Assembly: GCA_001783565.1 (NCBI GenBank)
Contig: MFMT01000042.1
Span: 29,408-61,552 of the forward strand
DNA: 32,145 nt
Reading direction: 5' to 3'
From: Candidatus Kaiserbacteria bacterium RIFOXYD1_FULL_42_15
Lineage (GTDB): Bacteria; Patescibacteriota; Minisyncoccia; Phycocordibacterales; UBA918
The notes under the pieces: generated by a model
What the model was told of the DNA's origin: nothing
Seen by the model: only the letters and a program-made list of their open reading frames with translations
Database searches by the model: none
Made by a program: the position numbers and the translations under genes
Part shown: piece by piece, positions 171-32,106 of the stretch
Position numbering within the stretch: position 1 is the first letter of the stretch
Layout of the letters: each line of letters starts with the position of its first letter

Positions 171-828
171 CAGTAACAAAAATCAGCTCAACTTTTTAGT
201 TGGGCGATTTTTTGTCTGTGCGCCGGGAGTGAGTGATTTAATATCACTCACGTAAGGATTTGAAGCCCGATTGAGCTGGATTATGAGTGAAGCGAAATAA
301 TCCAGCCAATTGGGGTACTGAACATGTAATGTTCAAATCCTTCCCGACGCACCAAATACCAAAACTCAAGCGACAGCTTGAGTTTTGTTGTATTTGGTAG
401 CGCCGGGAAGGATTTGAAAGACGAAGCCGGGGCCCCTCTGGGCCGGCGAGTCGGGGTCGAGCGAATGAGATATTTTGTGAATGAAATGAAACAAAATATC
501 CATGAGAGTGACCAAATCCTTCCCGACGCACGCGTATAAAAATCAGCTCAAGCTTTTGCTTGGGCGATTTTTATTGCGTGCGCCGGGAGCAAGCAAATAG
601 TTTTGCTTGCGTAAGGATTTGAAAGCCACAGCGATGTAGCTTTGCTACGAGCGAGGCGGGTGAGAAGTGATTTGACATCACTTCGCAAGACCTTGCCCGC
701 TATCTTTGAAGCGAAGCGAAAAGTAACGACAAGGTGTACAGAATTCGTAGAATTCGCGAACACTTTGTAGAATTGAACGTAGTGAAAATTATACTTAGTG
801 ATTCGTGTTCAAATCCTTCCCGGCGCAC
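171..828 (+). repeat. Array of three tRNA-Tyr 3'-tail units (171-352, 353-531, 532-828)
   Basis: Each unit has a terminator-like hairpin, an inverted copy of the tRNA 3' end, a structured core, then a direct copy of the tRNA-Tyr 3' end (331-352, 513-531, 807-828). Confidence 0.85.
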
Positions 829-5208: not shown

Positions 5209-5640
5209 CGACATGGATTGCCACACTGCGGTTCGCAAAGACGGACGGTGACGTTCATCGTCTTTGCGAGGAGGGAGCCCGCAGGCGAGGGACGTGGCAA
5301 TCCAGGGTGACGGGGCGATGTGGACGGACGATGGCGGGCGTGGATTGCCATGCCTCGCAAAGACGGACGGTGGTGACGGACGTTCTTTGTCTTTGCGAGT
5401 GAGAAAAACATACTATGCTTTTCTCACTCGCAAAGACGCATTGGTGTATATACCAAAAATCAATATAGGTCGTCATTGCGAGCAAAGCGCGGCAATCCAG
5501 AGTTGGTGTGACGTCACAGATTGCTTCCCTACAGATGAACGAATGAGTGTCGTAAAAATAAGACGTAACGTAGTGTAGTTTTATTTTTACGACCGAGTGA
5601 GTGAAATCTGTATGTTAATACAGGGACTGTTCAGGTTGTA
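5209..5640. repeat. Mosaic intergenic repeat cluster (GTGGATTGC.../GCAATCC family with embedded hairpins)
   Basis: Repeated 'GTCTTTGCGAG', 'GTGGCAATCCAGG' and inverse; hairpins 5389-5437 and 5549-5593. Confidence 0.75.
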
Positions 5641-5642
5641 AG

Positions 5643-6863
5643 CTAAAGTTTCTTTAGCTCCTCAACATGTTTAGCCAAAATTGCCACAGTTTTATCAAGT
5701 TCCGCTTTGGTGGTGTCTTCACCTAAAGTAAACCTGAGGGTAGAAGTGGCCCGAATAGAATCTCCTGAAATCGCCTTCACTACCGTACTTTCCCCACCCC
5801 CAGCGGCACTACAAGCACTTCTAGTACTAGCCGAAACCCCATGAGTATCAAGCATCACTACCGCAAATTCACTATCAATACCCGGGATAGAAACATTGAC
5901 ATTGTTAGCCACCCTTTTTTCACCAACTGATCCATTTACGATACATCCTGAAATTTCATTTGTTAATTTTGCCATAAAATAATCTCGCAAGTTCCTAACT
6001 GATTCACTGCGTGATAAATATGATTGCTGGGCTATCTCTAGCGCTTTAACACCACCAACGATTTGAGCCAATGGCTCGGTTCCGGGGCGAAGACCGTTTT
6101 CTTGGCCACCACCAAAAGTGATAGCTTCTAATTTTATCCCTTTTCCGCATGCTAAAATCCCGACACCTTTAGGGCCACCAAATTTTCCAGCATCCAAAGA
6201 CATTAGATTAATCTTATGACGAGGTAATTCGCACGGTAACCACAATGGTGCCTGGGAAGCATCGATAAATAACAAAACGTGTTGCCCAAGCGCTTGCTCC
6301 TGCTCCAACACCCGACTTACTGCCCCGATATCCTCAATTGTGCCAATTTCACTATTCACGTACGATATGCAAACTAGAATAGTTTGTTCATTGATCAAAC
6401 CCCTAAGTTCCGAAAGGATGACCTGTCCTCCAGCATCGACAGAAACATAATGAATCTTGACTCCTTTCCTCGATAAATATACCAAGGTCTTCTCTGTAGC
6501 CGGGTGTTCAATTTTAGTGGTAATAATTTCCATTTGATTCATAGGTGTTCCATCTCTTCTTTTGGTGGACACAACTCCCCTGATGGCTAAATTATTACTT
6601 TCCGTTCCTCCACTAGTGAAGGTCACCCCGGCTGGTTGGATTTGCAAAATCTGTGCCACCTTGGAGCGGGCTTCATGAAGGGCATTCTTGGCTTCTTGAC
6701 CCTCAAGATGAATGGAGCTCGCATTGCCAAAATTATCAACCAGAAAAGGAGTCATGGCTTTAACAGCTTCTTTGTACATCGGCATAGCTGAAGCATAATC
6801 CAAATAGATTCTAGTAAGCTTAGATGTGGTTAAACCCTTTTTTATATTTTTCAAAAATGACAT
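5643..6863 (-). CDS. Cysteine desulfurase (NifS/IscS family, PLP-dependent)
   Basis: 'YLDYASAMPMYKEAV', 'TSGGTESNNLAIRG', 'SLDAGKFGGPKGVG' and 'RPGTEPLAQIVG' motifs. Confidence 0.9.
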   Translation of the reverse strand: MSFLKNIKKGLTTSKLTRIYLDYASAMPMYKEAVKAMTPFLVDNFGNASSIHLEGQEAKNALHEARSKVAQILQIQPAGVTFTSGGTESNNLAIRGVVSTKRRDGTPMNQMEIITTKIEHPATEKTLVYLSRKGVKIHYVSVDAGGQVILSELRGLINEQTILVCISYVNSEIGTIEDIGAVSRVLEQEQALGQHVLLFIDASQAPLWLPCELPRHKINLMSLDAGKFGGPKGVGILACGKGIKLEAITFGGGQENGLRPGTEPLAQIVGGVKALEIAQQSYLSRSESVRNLRDYFMAKLTNEISGCIVNGSVGEKRVANNVNVSIPGIDSEFAVVMLDTHGVSASTRSACSAAGGGESTVVKAISGDSIRATSTLRFTLGEDTTKAELDKTVAILAKHVEELKKL

Positions 6864-8466: not shown

Positions 8467-8847
8467 ATGGAAATAAAACCCATTACTTTTGATAGACATG
8501 ACCGAGCGGCTTCTTTAATTAAAGAAATAGTAGCCACCTTCATTCAACAAGAGGCAAATCCCAATCCTCTTATTACCGTAACTCACGTTACTGTTTCTCC
8601 AGATTATCGAAAAGTGACAGTGTTTTTTACCACCATCCCTGACGGTCGCGAAGAAGATGCTTTAATTTTCCTCAAGCGCAGTGCTAATGAGATGCGCGGA
8701 TTTGTGAAGAAAAAAAGTAGTTTAAGAATTATTCCCCACTTGGAATTCTCAATAGACTACGGCGAACGACATCGCCAACACATCGATGAGATTGCCCACG
8801 AGATTGAGCACAGTGATGCCGACACCCCTACAGAACCAACCACCTAG
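8467..8847 (+). CDS. rbfA: Ribosome-binding factor A
   Basis: Position after infB; 'ITVTHVTVSPDYRKVTVFFT...RIIPHLEFSIDYGERHRQHIDEI'. Confidence 0.85.
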   Translation: MEIKPITFDRHDRAASLIKEIVATFIQQEANPNPLITVTHVTVSPDYRKVTVFFTTIPDGREEDALIFLKRSANEMRGFVKKKSSLRIIPHLEFSIDYGERHRQHIDEIAHEIEHSDADTPTEPTT

Positions 8848-8873
8848 GACATCCGATGTCCTAGGTGGTTGGT
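8835..8873. terminator. Near-perfect palindrome overlapping rbfA stop codon
   Basis: accaaccacctaggacat ccg atgtcctaggtggttggt, 18-bp stem; no strong T tract. Confidence 0.6.
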
Positions 8874-9245: not shown

Positions 9246-9329
9246 GCCGGGATGGTGTAATCGGTAGCCACGCAAGACTTAAAATTTTGTGGGCGCAAGC
9301 CCGTGCGGGTTCAAGTCCCGCTCCCGGCA
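9246..9329 (+). tRNA. tRNA-Leu (TAA)
   Basis: gccggga/tcccggc acceptor, loop cttaaaa, long variable arm. Confidence 0.93.
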
Positions 9330-9674
9330 CAATGTAATAGTACGTCAGATTTTTATCTGGCGTACTATTACATTTGCCCCAGGGACTTGAAGAGGTTGCC
9401 TGCTAGATTATGAGCTAGCGAAATAATCTAGCGACAACCTGTACTGAACTCGTAGAGTTCAAGTCCCGCTCCCGGCACAAATTAAAAACTATCATTCTTG
9501 AGAGTTTTTAATTTGTGCCGGGAAGAAAGCAAACTGCTTTGCTTTCGGGCGGGACTTGAAAGGCGGAGCGACGTGAGTTTACGAACAAGCGAGCCAGGGT
9601 CGTGAGCGATATATTTTTAAGGAGTTCACGACTATAAAAATAATCGACTCCTGACCAAGTCCCGCTCCCGGCAC
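9330..9674 (+). repeat. Two tRNA-Leu(TAA) 3'-tail units
   Basis: Direct copies of tRNA 3' end at 9457-9478 and 9657-9674; inverted copies at about 9374-9391 and 9515-9560. Confidence 0.85.
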
Positions 9675-9751
9675 AAAGTATTATTAAGAATATATAGATA
9701 GGTTGTCTAATTTAAATTTATCTTGTACACTTTGCTCTACCAAATATATAT

Positions 9752-9824: not shown

Positions 9825-10030
9825 CAAAGGTAAAGCAAAAACACTATCATAATATGATAGTGTTTTTGTTTTAAAAACTGAACTGCTTCAGTTTTGTGCC
9901 TGTGTGCGAGACGGAGCGATGTTTTTCTGCCCCCTTAGGCAGGAAAATAAGTGAGTCGGGGTAGCGAGTGCTTAGTAAAATAAAGACAAAGTATTTATTT
10001 TGGTTAGCAACTCGTGACCACACAGATACA
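9825..10030 (+). repeat. Structured element 3' of tRNA-Lys, type-2 core, no tRNA-tail copy
   Basis: Terminator hairpin then 'CTGTGTG..GACGGAGCGATG-hairpin-GTGAGTCGGGGT...CTCGTGACC..CACACAG'. Confidence 0.6.
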
Positions 10031-10107: not shown

Positions 10108-10189
10108 GCGCGAGTGGCGTAATTGGTAGCCGCGTTAGTCTTAGGAACTAATGGAGCAATCCGTGGAGGTTCAAGTCCTCTCTCGCGCA
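10108..10189 (+). tRNA. tRNA-Leu (TAG)
   Basis: gcgcgag/ctcgcgc acceptor, loop cttagga, long variable arm. Confidence 0.92.
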
Positions 10190-10340
10190 CAAAAGAAAAA
10201 CCGTCCCGCAAGGGCGGTTTTTTGACTGCGCGAGAAGTAGTGTGTGGGACACACTACGGGAGGACTTGAAGAGGTTGCCAGCTCTTTTGAAAAAAGAGCG
10301 ACAACCTGTACTGAACTCGTAGAGTTCAAGTCCTCTCTCC
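10190..10340 (+). repeat. tRNA-Leu(TAG) 3'-tail unit
   Basis: Terminator hairpin; tgcgcgagaag + hairpin TAGTGTGT/ACACACTA + gaggacttgaa (inverted tail); core; direct tail gttcaagtcctctctc. Confidence 0.82.
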
Positions 10341-10848: not shown

Positions 10849-11035
10849 ACGTCTTTGCGAGTGAGAAAGTCCAGTGGACTTTCGCAAGACCTTGCCAGCT
10901 CTTTTGTAAAAAGAGCGACAAGGTGTACAGTCCCTGTTAAGGGAAAGCGCGGCAATCCACGTCCATCATCGTGTTCGTCTTCGCGAGTCGCAACGTGGCG
11001 ATCCACTTCTTCACCTAAACCACAGCCGAGCGAAA
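10849..11035. repeat. Mosaic intergenic repeat with type-1 structured insert
   Basis: gtctttgcgag...gagaaagtccagtggactttcgcaagaccttgcc...gacaaggtgtacagtccctgttaaggg...gcggcaatccacg. Confidence 0.75.
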
Positions 11036-14257: not shown

Positions 14258-14381
14258 AAAATTAAATTGTTAATACTATTAATGAGTATTAATGGTAATT
14301 ATACATGATAATTTGGGGATTGTATGCTTTCTGGGGTGGGGTGTGTATAAAAAAGCTGGTTACAGAAATGAGTCCTGTGAA

Positions 14382-14645
14382 GACGTGGATTGCTTCGCGC
14401 GACTCGCAAAGACGTTTCACTTTGTGTTCGTCTTCGCGAGGAGTGGAGTGGCAACGTGAAAAAGTGATTCAATATCACTTTGCAAGACTAGTTGAGCAGG
14501 TTTGTGAGTGAAACGAAACAAACTGGCCAACTAGTGGACAGTCCCTGTAAGGGAATGACGTGGCGATCCAGGGTGGCATGACGAACGATGTGGATTGCCA
14601 CGTTGCGACTCGCCTGTCTGCGCAGGCAGACAAAGACGGAGGGGT
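14382..14645. repeat. Mosaic intergenic repeat carrying a 99-bp type-1 insert (14457-14555)
   Basis: Near-identical to 17268-17428 apart from the insert. Confidence 0.88.
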
Positions 14646-17177: not shown

Positions 17178-17267
17178 TAGTATACCGCAAGGAAGTTAAA
17201 AAAAGTGTCGGTGGGGTGTAGAGAACCTGTTTATCCTTAAGACAAACGGTTACGTAACGGACGCAAA

Positions 17268-17428
17268 CGTGGATTGCTTCGTTGCGACTCGCAAAGACGT
17301 TTCACTTTGTGTTCGTCTTCGCGAGGAGCGGAGTGGCAACGGAGTGACGTGGCGATCCAGGGTGGCATGACGAACGATTTGGATTGCCACGTTGCGACTC
17401 GCCTGTCTGCGCAGGCAGGCAAAGACGA
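17268..17428. repeat. Mosaic intergenic repeat (empty-site counterpart of 14382-14645)
   Basis: acgtggattgcttcgttgcgactcgcaaagacg...gtggcaacggagtgacgtggcgatccag... Confidence 0.85.
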
Positions 17429-17468
17429 AACTTTTCCATCTTCAATCTTCTCTATTTTTGTTTTCTCT

Positions 17469-21554: not shown

Positions 21555-21710
21555 CAACGTTGTCTTCGCGAGGAGCGAGCGCACGAGTGACGTGGCGATC
21601 CAGGGTGGCGACGATGACGAACGGTGTGGATTGCCGCGCTGTGGCTCGCCTGTCTGCCATGCCTGCCCTGCATACGCAGGCATGGCATGCAGGGCAGGCA
21701 GGCAAAGACG
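21555..21710. repeat. Mosaic intergenic repeat with expanded nested palindrome
   Basis: tcttcgcgaggagcgagcg...gtggcgatccaggg...tggattgccgcg...ggcaaagacg. Confidence 0.75.
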
Positions 21711-25823: not shown

Positions 25824-26605
25824 GGATTGCCTGCCTGCACATGTATAACACCTAACGAGCCAGCAGGTGGGCTTCATGACGACTTGCAAAAACGGTAGTC
25901 TTCGTCATTGCGAGAAGGGTGACCGCAGTCTAATGACGTGGCAAATCCATGACCGTACAGAAACGTGGATTGCTTCGTTGTGACTCGCAAAGACGGGTAC
26001 GAAGAACGACACCCCACCATCGTCTTTGCGAGGAATGAGCTGGCAAGCAAATGACGTGGCAATCCACACCATCACCGTCTTTGAGGAGGGAGCTGGCAAG
26101 CGTGAAAAAGTGACTCAATGTTGTGTAAAATAATAAGCGTAGCGACTATATTTTTCATACATAGAATTTTTTATCCTTAATAAAAATTCTTGCACTTTGC
26201 AGCCAACTTGAGCTGGTTTGTACCCACCTTTAGCTGCGAGCAAAGCGTGGCAGGAAATAAAATAGCCAATGAGTGGACAGTCCCTGTTAAGGTGAGAAAT
26301 GTCTGGGTGAGAAAGTCCAGTGGACTTTCTCAAGAGGTTGCCTACTATTTTGCAAAAATAGCGTCAACCTGAACAGCTTCTGTATAGAAGACATTTCGCA
26401 GCCACATTGAGCTAGTTTTACCCACCTTTAGCTGCGAGCGAAGCGTGGCAGGAAATAAAGTAGCCAATGAGTGGACAGTCCCTGTTAAGGTGAGAAAAGC
26501 ATGGGATGCTTTTCGCAAGACTCATTGAGGGATTTTGTGAGTGCAACTAAACAAAATACCCAATGAGTGGACAGTCCCTGTAAGGGAGCAACGTGGTGAT
26601 CCAGG
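25824..26605. repeat. Large compound block of nested/tandem mosaic repeats and type-1 elements
   Basis: At least three GCAATCC-type repeats followed by several type-1 cores ending 'GGACAGTCCCTGTtAAGG'; near-duplicate blocks about 26200-26293 and 26399-26492. Confidence 0.8.
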
Positions 26606-30062: not shown

Positions 30063-30114
30063 GACCGATTCTTCTACGGCAATGTCTTTTCTTCATATTA
30101 TTTAGTCGGAGGCA

Positions 30115-30245
30115 GGTGCTGCGAGGCGGAGCGATATGAGTCGCCCCTTCCTAGGGCGACGAAACAGCGAGCCGTGGTCAGAAGTACTTATTAGAATTTA
30201 TACAAAGTATAAATTATAGTTAGTAACTTGTGACCCGTACCGGCA
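30115..30245. repeat. Dispersed type-2 structured element
   Basis: gaggcggagcgatatgagtcgccccttcctagggcgacgaaacagcgagccgtggtc...acttgtgacc. Confidence 0.6.
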
Positions 30246-30289: not shown

Positions 30290-30470
30290 ACTGGTGCAGC
30301 GGGGCGTAGCGGAATGACACAGCAATCTAGAGTGGCGATGTGGATTACCGCATTGTGACTCGCCTGTCTGCGCAGGCAGGCAAAGACGCGGGGGGTGTAA
30401 TCCACCATCGTCTTCGCGAGGAATGAGCTGGCAAGCGAATGACGTGGCGATCCAGGACGACTACGTGACA
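30290..30470. repeat. Mosaic intergenic repeat
   Basis: gactcgcctgtctgcgcaggcaggcaaagacg...cgtcttcgcgaggaatgagctggcaagcgaatgacgtggcgatccagg. Confidence 0.75.
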
Positions 30471-31864: not shown

Positions 31865-31951
31865 GGAAGAGTCGCATAGTGGTCTAGTGCACCGGTTTCG
31901 AAAACCGGCATCGGGGAAACTCGATCGAGGGTTCAAATCCCTCCTCTTCCG
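31865..31951 (+). tRNA. tRNA-Ser (CGA)
   Basis: ggaagag/ctcttcc acceptor, loop ttcgaaa, long variable arm, G73. Confidence 0.93.
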
Positions 31952-32106
31952 CAGTGAATGAAATGAACGAAGGAAGAGGAGGTTGCAGCATTTTGAAAAA
32001 ATGCGTAGCAAGATTTGAAGCCCGATTGAGCTAGATTATGAGCTTGCGAAATAATCTAGCCAATTGGGGTACTGAACATGTAATGTTCAAATCCCTCCTC
32101 TTCCGC
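31952..32106 (+). repeat. tRNA-Ser 3'-tail unit
   Basis: Inverted tail ggaagaggagg + hairpin + gatttgaa, core nearly identical to tRNA-Tyr unit 1, direct tail gttcaaatccctcctcttccgc at 32085-32106. Confidence 0.85.

Follow-up and report, generated by a model that had tools for sequence, protein, structure and literature searches.

A gene-less three-hairpin element family of Patescibacteria whose 3' guide usually matches the adjoining host DNA

Integrative elements use the 3' ends of tRNA genes as attachment sites and restore that end, the old one being displaced downstream. Palindromes can also be targets, and IS1397 is said to enter REPs at their axis of symmetry. The same axis is used by ISPsy8 and others, which are full IS elements and make direct repeats (PMC1525189). 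IS608 picks its target by base pairing through a tetranucleotide guide; changing the guide by engineering redirects the element, and extended pairing adds specificity (PMC5934647). The repetitive and double hairpin elements of fungal and sponge mitochondria are described as gene-less and structured, with tandem insertions and a location in RNA genes (PMC2800124). Here we set beside these systems a family of gene-less, three-hairpin elements ("alpha", 80-200 nt) from Candidatus Kaiserbacteria bacterium RIFOXYD1_FULL_42_15. The DNA analysed (GCA_001783565.1, MFMT01000042.1:29,408-61,552, forward strand) is a stretch of 32,145 nt, referred to below as the window.

Positions 26102-26584 of the window are an array of four alpha copies, a to d (Table 1). 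Copies a, b (26292-26489) and d follow one another head to tail at a single site, which lies in a palindromic repeat common in this genome. By position, copy a is the oldest in the tandem array and copy d, which adjoins the target, is the youngest. Copy c is nested in copy b. The original prediction placed a complete unit in the loop of another element's hairpin, between GAAATGTC (26296-26303) and GACATTTC (26390-26397), and both the arrangement and these coordinates are borne out base by base. The inserted unit is exactly 26307-26387 and reads GTGAGAAAGTCC-AGT-GGACTTTCTC ... ACAG-CTTC-TGTATAG. It sits in a loop, because its removal leaves GAAATGTCT-GGA-AGACATTTC, in which a stem of 9 bp closes a loop of 3 nt. 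Uninterrupted relatives of this hairpin, GAAATGTCTGGGAGACATTTC, occur in the same genome at L011 and L028, one base off the predicted empty form.

A second nest had been proposed at 26104-26197, where a hairpin of the type seen at 14463-14482 was thought to hold about 75 nt. The hairpin at approximately 14461-14481 reads AAAGTGAT-TCAAT-ATCACTTT, with a 5-nt loop, and its counterpart at 26107-26200 does contain 71 extra nt ("delta"). However, the junction (AATGT^CAC) is two bases into the 3' arm, past the loop position, and thus not strictly in the loop. Delta is found in about 11 copies in this genome, only ever in the first hairpin (HP1) of an alpha element; HP1s without it are at 14461-14481, L020 and L063:1734-. 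The region proved to hold more than had been predicted: a tandem of three with one copy nested, 3' hairpins that are half element and half host DNA, and, in other copies, further dolls. In alpha copies that differ in their guides, "gamma" (CATACAGATTTCACTCACTCGGTC...) is inserted in the terminal hairpin behind CTGTA, and most gamma copies contain a 54-nt hairpin that is missing from the copy at L003. The composite of a host HP1 with a copy of the c type is also present at L002, L008, L005, L014 and L015. Its outer flanks differ, so the composite moved as a unit and the nested copies represent few independent events.

Table 1. Positions of alpha copies and associated features in the window
Feature	Position	Strand	Remarks
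tRNA-type alpha after tRNA-Tyr (87-170)	229..330	+	putative extended guide AAGGATTTGAA antisense to displaced T-arm GTTCAAATCCTTCCCGACGCA
alpha copy with long guide stem GAATTC-GTA-GAATTC	660..751	+	
alpha copy with gamma in its 3' hairpin; the 54-nt hairpin interrupts gamma (three-level nest)	5541..5698	-	
tRNA-type alpha after tRNA-Leu (9246-9329)	9382..9456	+	displaced 3' end downstream
tRNA-type alpha after second tRNA-Leu (10108-10189)	10242..10323	+	displaced 3' end TTCAAGTCCTCTC downstream
simple alpha copy in palindromic repeat	10861..10941	+	TTTGCGA^GGAAAGCGCGGCAATCC
simple alpha copy	14456..14551	+	empty site in the window at 17330-17359: GGCAAC^GGAGTGACGTGG
alpha copy a	26102..26291	+	guide TCCC 26281-26284; HP1 interrupted by 26122-26192; model R1 match 26180-26287; copies elsewhere
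delta, 71-nt insert	26122..26192	+	between AATGT and CAC of HP1 of copy a
alpha copy b, left part	26292..26306	+	GTGAG and HP1 5' arm GAAATGTCT 26296-26304
alpha copy c, nested in HP1 loop of copy b	26307..26387	+	guide CTTC 26377-26380 pairs with GAAG 26387-26390
alpha copy b, right part	26388..26489	+	HP1 3' arm AGACATTTC 26389-26397, stem 2, guide TCCC 26479-26482
alpha copy d	26490..26584	+	guide TCCC 26575-26578 pairs with GGGA 26584-26587; DNA fold z = -6.5
host target, right part of interrupted palindromic repeat (GGAGCAACGTGGTGATCCAGG)	26585..26605	+	left part up to 26101; such repeats are also found as empty sites
tRNA-type alpha after tRNA gene 31865-31951	31993..32084	+	displaced 3' end downstream

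A covariance model built from 14 copies detects 94 alpha matches in this 757-kb genome, and outside the window the analysis used stretches around such matches. Of the 59 genomes searched (this one and relatives), 47 have matches; alpha is present in 33 of the 34 congeners, and in 13 of the 24 genomes that represent other families in the order. A class-wide search with the model found alpha in at least 9 of 188 genomes (22 candidates per genome scored), and the family is sparser there than in the order. The named genomes with an exact-pattern match are Candidatus Nomurabacteria, Zambryskibacteria, Taylorbacteria, Kaiserbacteria and other Patescibacteria, including one Roizmanbacteria; all named matches are Patescibacteria. 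An Rfam 15 scan of the window gave no alpha family and no intron, ribozyme or HEARO/omega RNA model match, only tRNAs passing the gathering score, and our searches of the literature on Patescibacteria repeats, which covered it incompletely, found no description of alpha. Alpha is a large element family that is previously undescribed in the sources searched.

From 5' to 3', alpha consists of a GTGAG-hairpin (HP1) with a variable stem, the linker GCAAGA, a long and variable stem 2 with a conserved internal loop, and a 3' hairpin in which a guide of 3-4 nt lies between ACAG and CTGTA(A)G. HP1 and stem 2 are kept in all 97 aligned relatives, with 96.5% of cells paired. In this alignment there are 470 double compensatory cells (137 in shuffles), and the helix covariation score is 0.686, compared to 0.187 when shuffled and at most 0.12 for slid structures. 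Single strands of alpha fold with z-scores of -5.7 to -7.2, and structural conservation is far above chance. On the + strand, G-T wobbles outnumber A-C pairs by 37 to 4 after a single conserved C-A column in the internal loop is excluded (A-C pairs total 46 with this column), and by 26 to 7 when HP1 is scored separately. This excess indicates that one strand, probably the + strand, folds, either as DNA or as RNA. The + strand of alpha is the G-rich strand at 75 of 117 loci in relatives (p = 0.003), a weak GC-skew bias that bears on whether the active strand is on the lagging-strand template; this genome has no such bias.

The 4-nt guide near the 3' end is perfectly complementary to the first bases past the element in 63 of 83 copies in this genome and in 103 of 116 copies in relatives. 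When guides were paired with the flanks of other copies, the frequency was 18% and 14%, respectively, with maxima of 30% and 24% in 1000 trials. More than 35 different guides occur, and most mismatches between guide and flank in this genome are in copies whose neighbour was altered by a later insertion. Guide and host DNA together form a 4-bp terminal hairpin. We looked for pairing beyond 4 nt in simple alpha copies and found none, the match ending at exactly four bases. Because the element may itself supply the first G of this paired arm, two to three of the four paired bases are certainly target. In the array of the window, the guide is CTTC for GAAG in the nested copy c and TCCC for GGGA in the tandem copies, which reflect re-insertion at one target. 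The upstream element in tandem arrays ends in ...TCCCTGTTAAG and is followed directly by the GTGAG of the next, with GGGA present only after the last copy. The paired 3' arm is therefore mostly host DNA, since upstream tandem members do not have it.

Comparison of empty and filled sites agrees with this and shows that the element goes in precisely, leaving no target duplication and no more than one ambiguous G. This is the case for GGCAAC^GGAGTGACG (window 17330) and the alpha at 14456, for GCGA^GGAATGAGC (window 26028 and 30416) and the alpha at L018:1501, and for GCGCAC^GAAGCAATCC (L026 and L053) and the alpha at L014:123-. About 10 simple alpha copies at the 5' ends of genes are flanked by direct duplications of 30-52 nt, the left copy of which ends at the element.

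Several other features of the sites were observed. The main target of alpha in this genome is a set of abundant palindromic repeats (TGGATTGCCAC...CTCGCAAAGACG and the inverse), present in the window at 5252-5540, 14380-14620, 17265-17430, 21567-21710, 25896-26066 and 30299-30454. At L181, L125, L138, L149, L140, L081 and L082, alpha is near the 5' end of a gene or tRNA, and 22-52 nt of the start of the next gene (e.g., MKKFPEGFYWG) recur as a direct duplication just before the element. At L082:1501+ and L155:428-, alpha follows the D-arm of a tRNA 5' half (GGTAGA^), and at L082 an intact copy of that tRNA start is 54 nt downstream.

Some alpha copies lie behind tRNA genes. In these, a stretch at the foot of stem 2 is antisense to the T-arm and acceptor of the tRNA, and a displaced second tRNA 3' end is found downstream. 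Judging from the sequence, the antisense stretch would be an extended guide. Runs of at least 10 nt between this stretch and the target are present in 14% of tRNA- and gene-end-type copies and in 0.9% of mispaired ones. At the tRNA-Tyr locus, the 5' acceptor strand of the gene (87-170) is GCGTCGG, with which the first displaced end (CCGACGC) makes no wobble and the present end (CCGGCGC) makes one. Some copies at gene 3' ends are similar: KDIEEEA-stop precedes and KDIETEE-stop follows the element at L292, and the corresponding ends at L324 are VDETEA-stop and TEETEA-stop. At four places in the window, the tRNA gene is followed in turn by a terminator, the tRNA 3' end in inverted copy, the element, and at least one displaced 3' end: 87-831 (tRNA-Tyr, with three displaced ends in succession), 9246-9676 and 10108-10340 (tRNA-Leu), and 31865-32105. 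A second repeat family, "beta" (GGCGGAGCGA...CGAGCC-GGGTC...GTGACC; window 421-512, 9562-9657, 9905-10020 and 30110-30236), likewise ends beside displaced copies of the tRNA T-arm.

The search for a driver covered several kinds of genes. In 34 further loci and in the 72 named loci, we found no autonomous alpha, which would have a gene lying between its ends. There are five Y1 genes in this genome, which has an IS200-like TnpA and four RAYTs, and neither these nor the Y1 genes of related genomes have alpha ends. Eight genomes with at least seven alpha copies have no detectable Y1 gene. RAYT genes and alpha copy number show a weak association (p about 0.02, with kinship ignored), and no physical link between alpha and a RAYT gene was found. 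No relative of the IS200-like protein was found in viral contigs. We rejected the idea that alpha represents the ends of this genome's Y1 elements or its RAYT REPs, as the ends differ. A conventional RAYT REP of this genome is the palindrome CACCTAGGACATC-GGATGTCCTAGGTG, which is beside a RAYT gene at L033:1325-1352 and stands alone at 8840-8870 of the window. Two other RAYT genes have different palindromes of their own (GTGAATGAAGTCCGAC... and AACTTAGGGGTTTAACCCCTAAGTT; L034:1905-2025, and L035:1270-1310 and 1945-1975).

What, then, determines where alpha goes? The original prediction took the nests to mean that hairpin loops are preferred insertion sites. Elements do insert in the hairpins of other elements, but the preference for loops fails a census in which flanks were rejoined at 70 unique sites in this genome and 112 in relatives, and each junction was scored by the best stem that placed it in a 3-8 nt loop. 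A stem of at least 6 bp crosses the junction at 12.9% of sites in this genome and 9.8% in relatives, compared to 12.7% and 9.3% when flanks of different copies were mispaired and 14.5% and 13.8% when the junction was shifted. There is no enrichment among these 182 sites, and loops are therefore not generally preferred. An enzyme that recognizes or needs a loop would fit the location of copy c in a 9-bp hairpin, of L175 in an 11-bp hairpin, of L176 in a 9-bp hairpin, and of gamma in the 3' hairpin of alpha, and a few loops might be favored. As a general rule, however, this is refuted by the census, and the majority of copies are in guide-matching sites that are unstructured or in palindromic repeats, making loops as the preferred target very improbable. 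The guide rule better explains the choice of target and the pile-up of adjoining and nested copies. It is conceivable, at an even lower probability, that alpha does not move at all and that its copies are conserved RNAs with a regulatory or terminator role, which ordinary duplication and recombination have spread. Strand-specific folding and the many copies behind genes and tRNAs are consistent with such RNAs, whereas the precise empty and filled pairs in unrelated contexts, the target-matched 3' arms, and the nested composites at unrelated sites argue for movement.

We postulate, at roughly even probability, that alpha is a non-autonomous structured element whose guide selects the site by pairing in single-stranded DNA and whose enzyme acts in trans, with a logic like that of IS200/IS605 or RAYT. 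The guide would pick its site much as the guide GL picks the target CT in IS608, and the chemistry would most likely be that of an HUH Y1 transposase of the IS200/RAYT kind. Alpha would insert precisely and usually without target duplication, and its 3' end would then abut host DNA complementary to the guide. Nests and tandem arrays would form because the short complement of the guide occurs in other elements and persists at the end of each insertion, and not because loops attract. In some lineages, a longer stretch antisense to tRNA T-arm or acceptor DNA is accompanied by a copy of the tRNA 3' end, which would keep the tRNA whole. Besides the lack of an autonomous copy, the other ends of the Y1 genes and the eight alpha-rich genomes with no detectable Y1 gene, two observations speak against the Y1 route: the guide faces the 3' flank on the + strand, if that strand is active, whereas IS608 reads the 5' flank, and the direct duplications of 30-52 nt are of a kind that Y1 transposition does not make. 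We also entertain, tentatively, the possibility that alpha is a re-programmable, DNA- or RNA-guided transposable element of Patescibacteria in which the guide defines or records the target, some lineages have guides of 10-20 nt antisense to tRNA or gene 3' ends together with a replacement end, and the driver is not a known type of transposase. An alternative less likely than the main reading is that the guide arm is a product of insertion, with snap-back (quasi-palindrome) repair copying 4 nt of the target into the landed element. Guides diverge 3-4 times faster per base than bodies (14-27 independent pairs), so the target might be the source of the guide and not be selected by it, and there are pairs of copies with bodies that are 95-99% identical and different guides, each of which perfectly fits its own flank (L008:1376 and L095:530; L117 and L115; L173 and L183). 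Yet the pairing stops sharply at 4 nt with no outward extension, guides are shared by 57% of copies with closely similar bodies compared to 13% of dissimilar ones, and the guides of tandem members all fit a common target that the last member alone touches. Movement through RNA, by reverse splicing or target-primed reverse transcription with an RNA guide pairing to the target strand, is unlikely. The wobble bias is compatible with a + strand RNA, and some copies have long flanking duplications while others are precise and have none. However, no reverse transcriptase (RVT_1) was found in this genome (84% complete) and in 42 of the 59 genomes searched, and we rejected it as the driver since it is either absent or not associated with alpha copy number; the lack of Rfam intron or ribozyme matches also speaks against such a route.

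Compared with described systems, alpha shares parts with several. Like the REPs of RAYTs (TnpA-REP), it is an extragenic palindrome in high copy number whose hairpin is preceded on the 5' side by a GT-G tag (GTGAG-HP1 in alpha), and this genome and many related ones have RAYTs. In contrast to REPs, it has two more hairpins and a guide that matches the target, the RAYTs in this genome carry other, simple palindromes, and several alpha-rich genomes have no RAYT. The IS elements found at REPs and alpha both enter palindromes, but alpha is gene-less and is not enriched in loops. With the mitochondrial hairpin elements, alpha shares gene-less structure, tandem insertion and location in RNA genes, whereas the sequences and hosts are unrelated and no guide is reported in the portion of that source considered here. 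The mitochondrial elements have conserved stems and variable loops, the reverse of alpha, in which stems are highly variable and covary (PMC2800124). The tRNA-type copies have the same restored and displaced tRNA 3' ends as integrative elements, but these units are small (approximately 160 to 290 nt in the cases examined) and gene-less and have an antisense copy of the tRNA end.

Like the IS200/IS605 elements (IS608, ISDra2) and their MITEs, alpha has subterminal hairpins, a short target paired with a guide, and, at the three empty and filled pairs compared, no target duplication. Unlike them, it has no tnpA in or beside it, dozens of natural guides and not one fixed guide, a target on the 3' side of the folding strand, and, in some copies, long flanking duplications. 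We suggest that IS608 is the closest working analogue, and we do not claim membership. Alpha and IS608 are alike in principle: one end has a fixed tag, the other adjoins a target that fits the guide, and there is usually no duplication. Should the guide be what selects the target, alpha copies are natural experiments in base-pair-guided insertion with a cargo-free unit of about 90 nt; if the target writes the guide, they represent a new kind of insertion chemistry. Either way, alpha explains both a large class of unannotated Patescibacteria repeats and the displaced tRNA 3' ends behind the tRNA genes of these bacteria. The diversity of natural guides and the tRNA variants make base-pair-guided insertion testable. 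What was done with IS608 in the laboratory, by changing the guide and adding pairing, resembles what is seen with alpha in nature: dozens of guides that match their sites, and long antisense stretches to tRNA genes.
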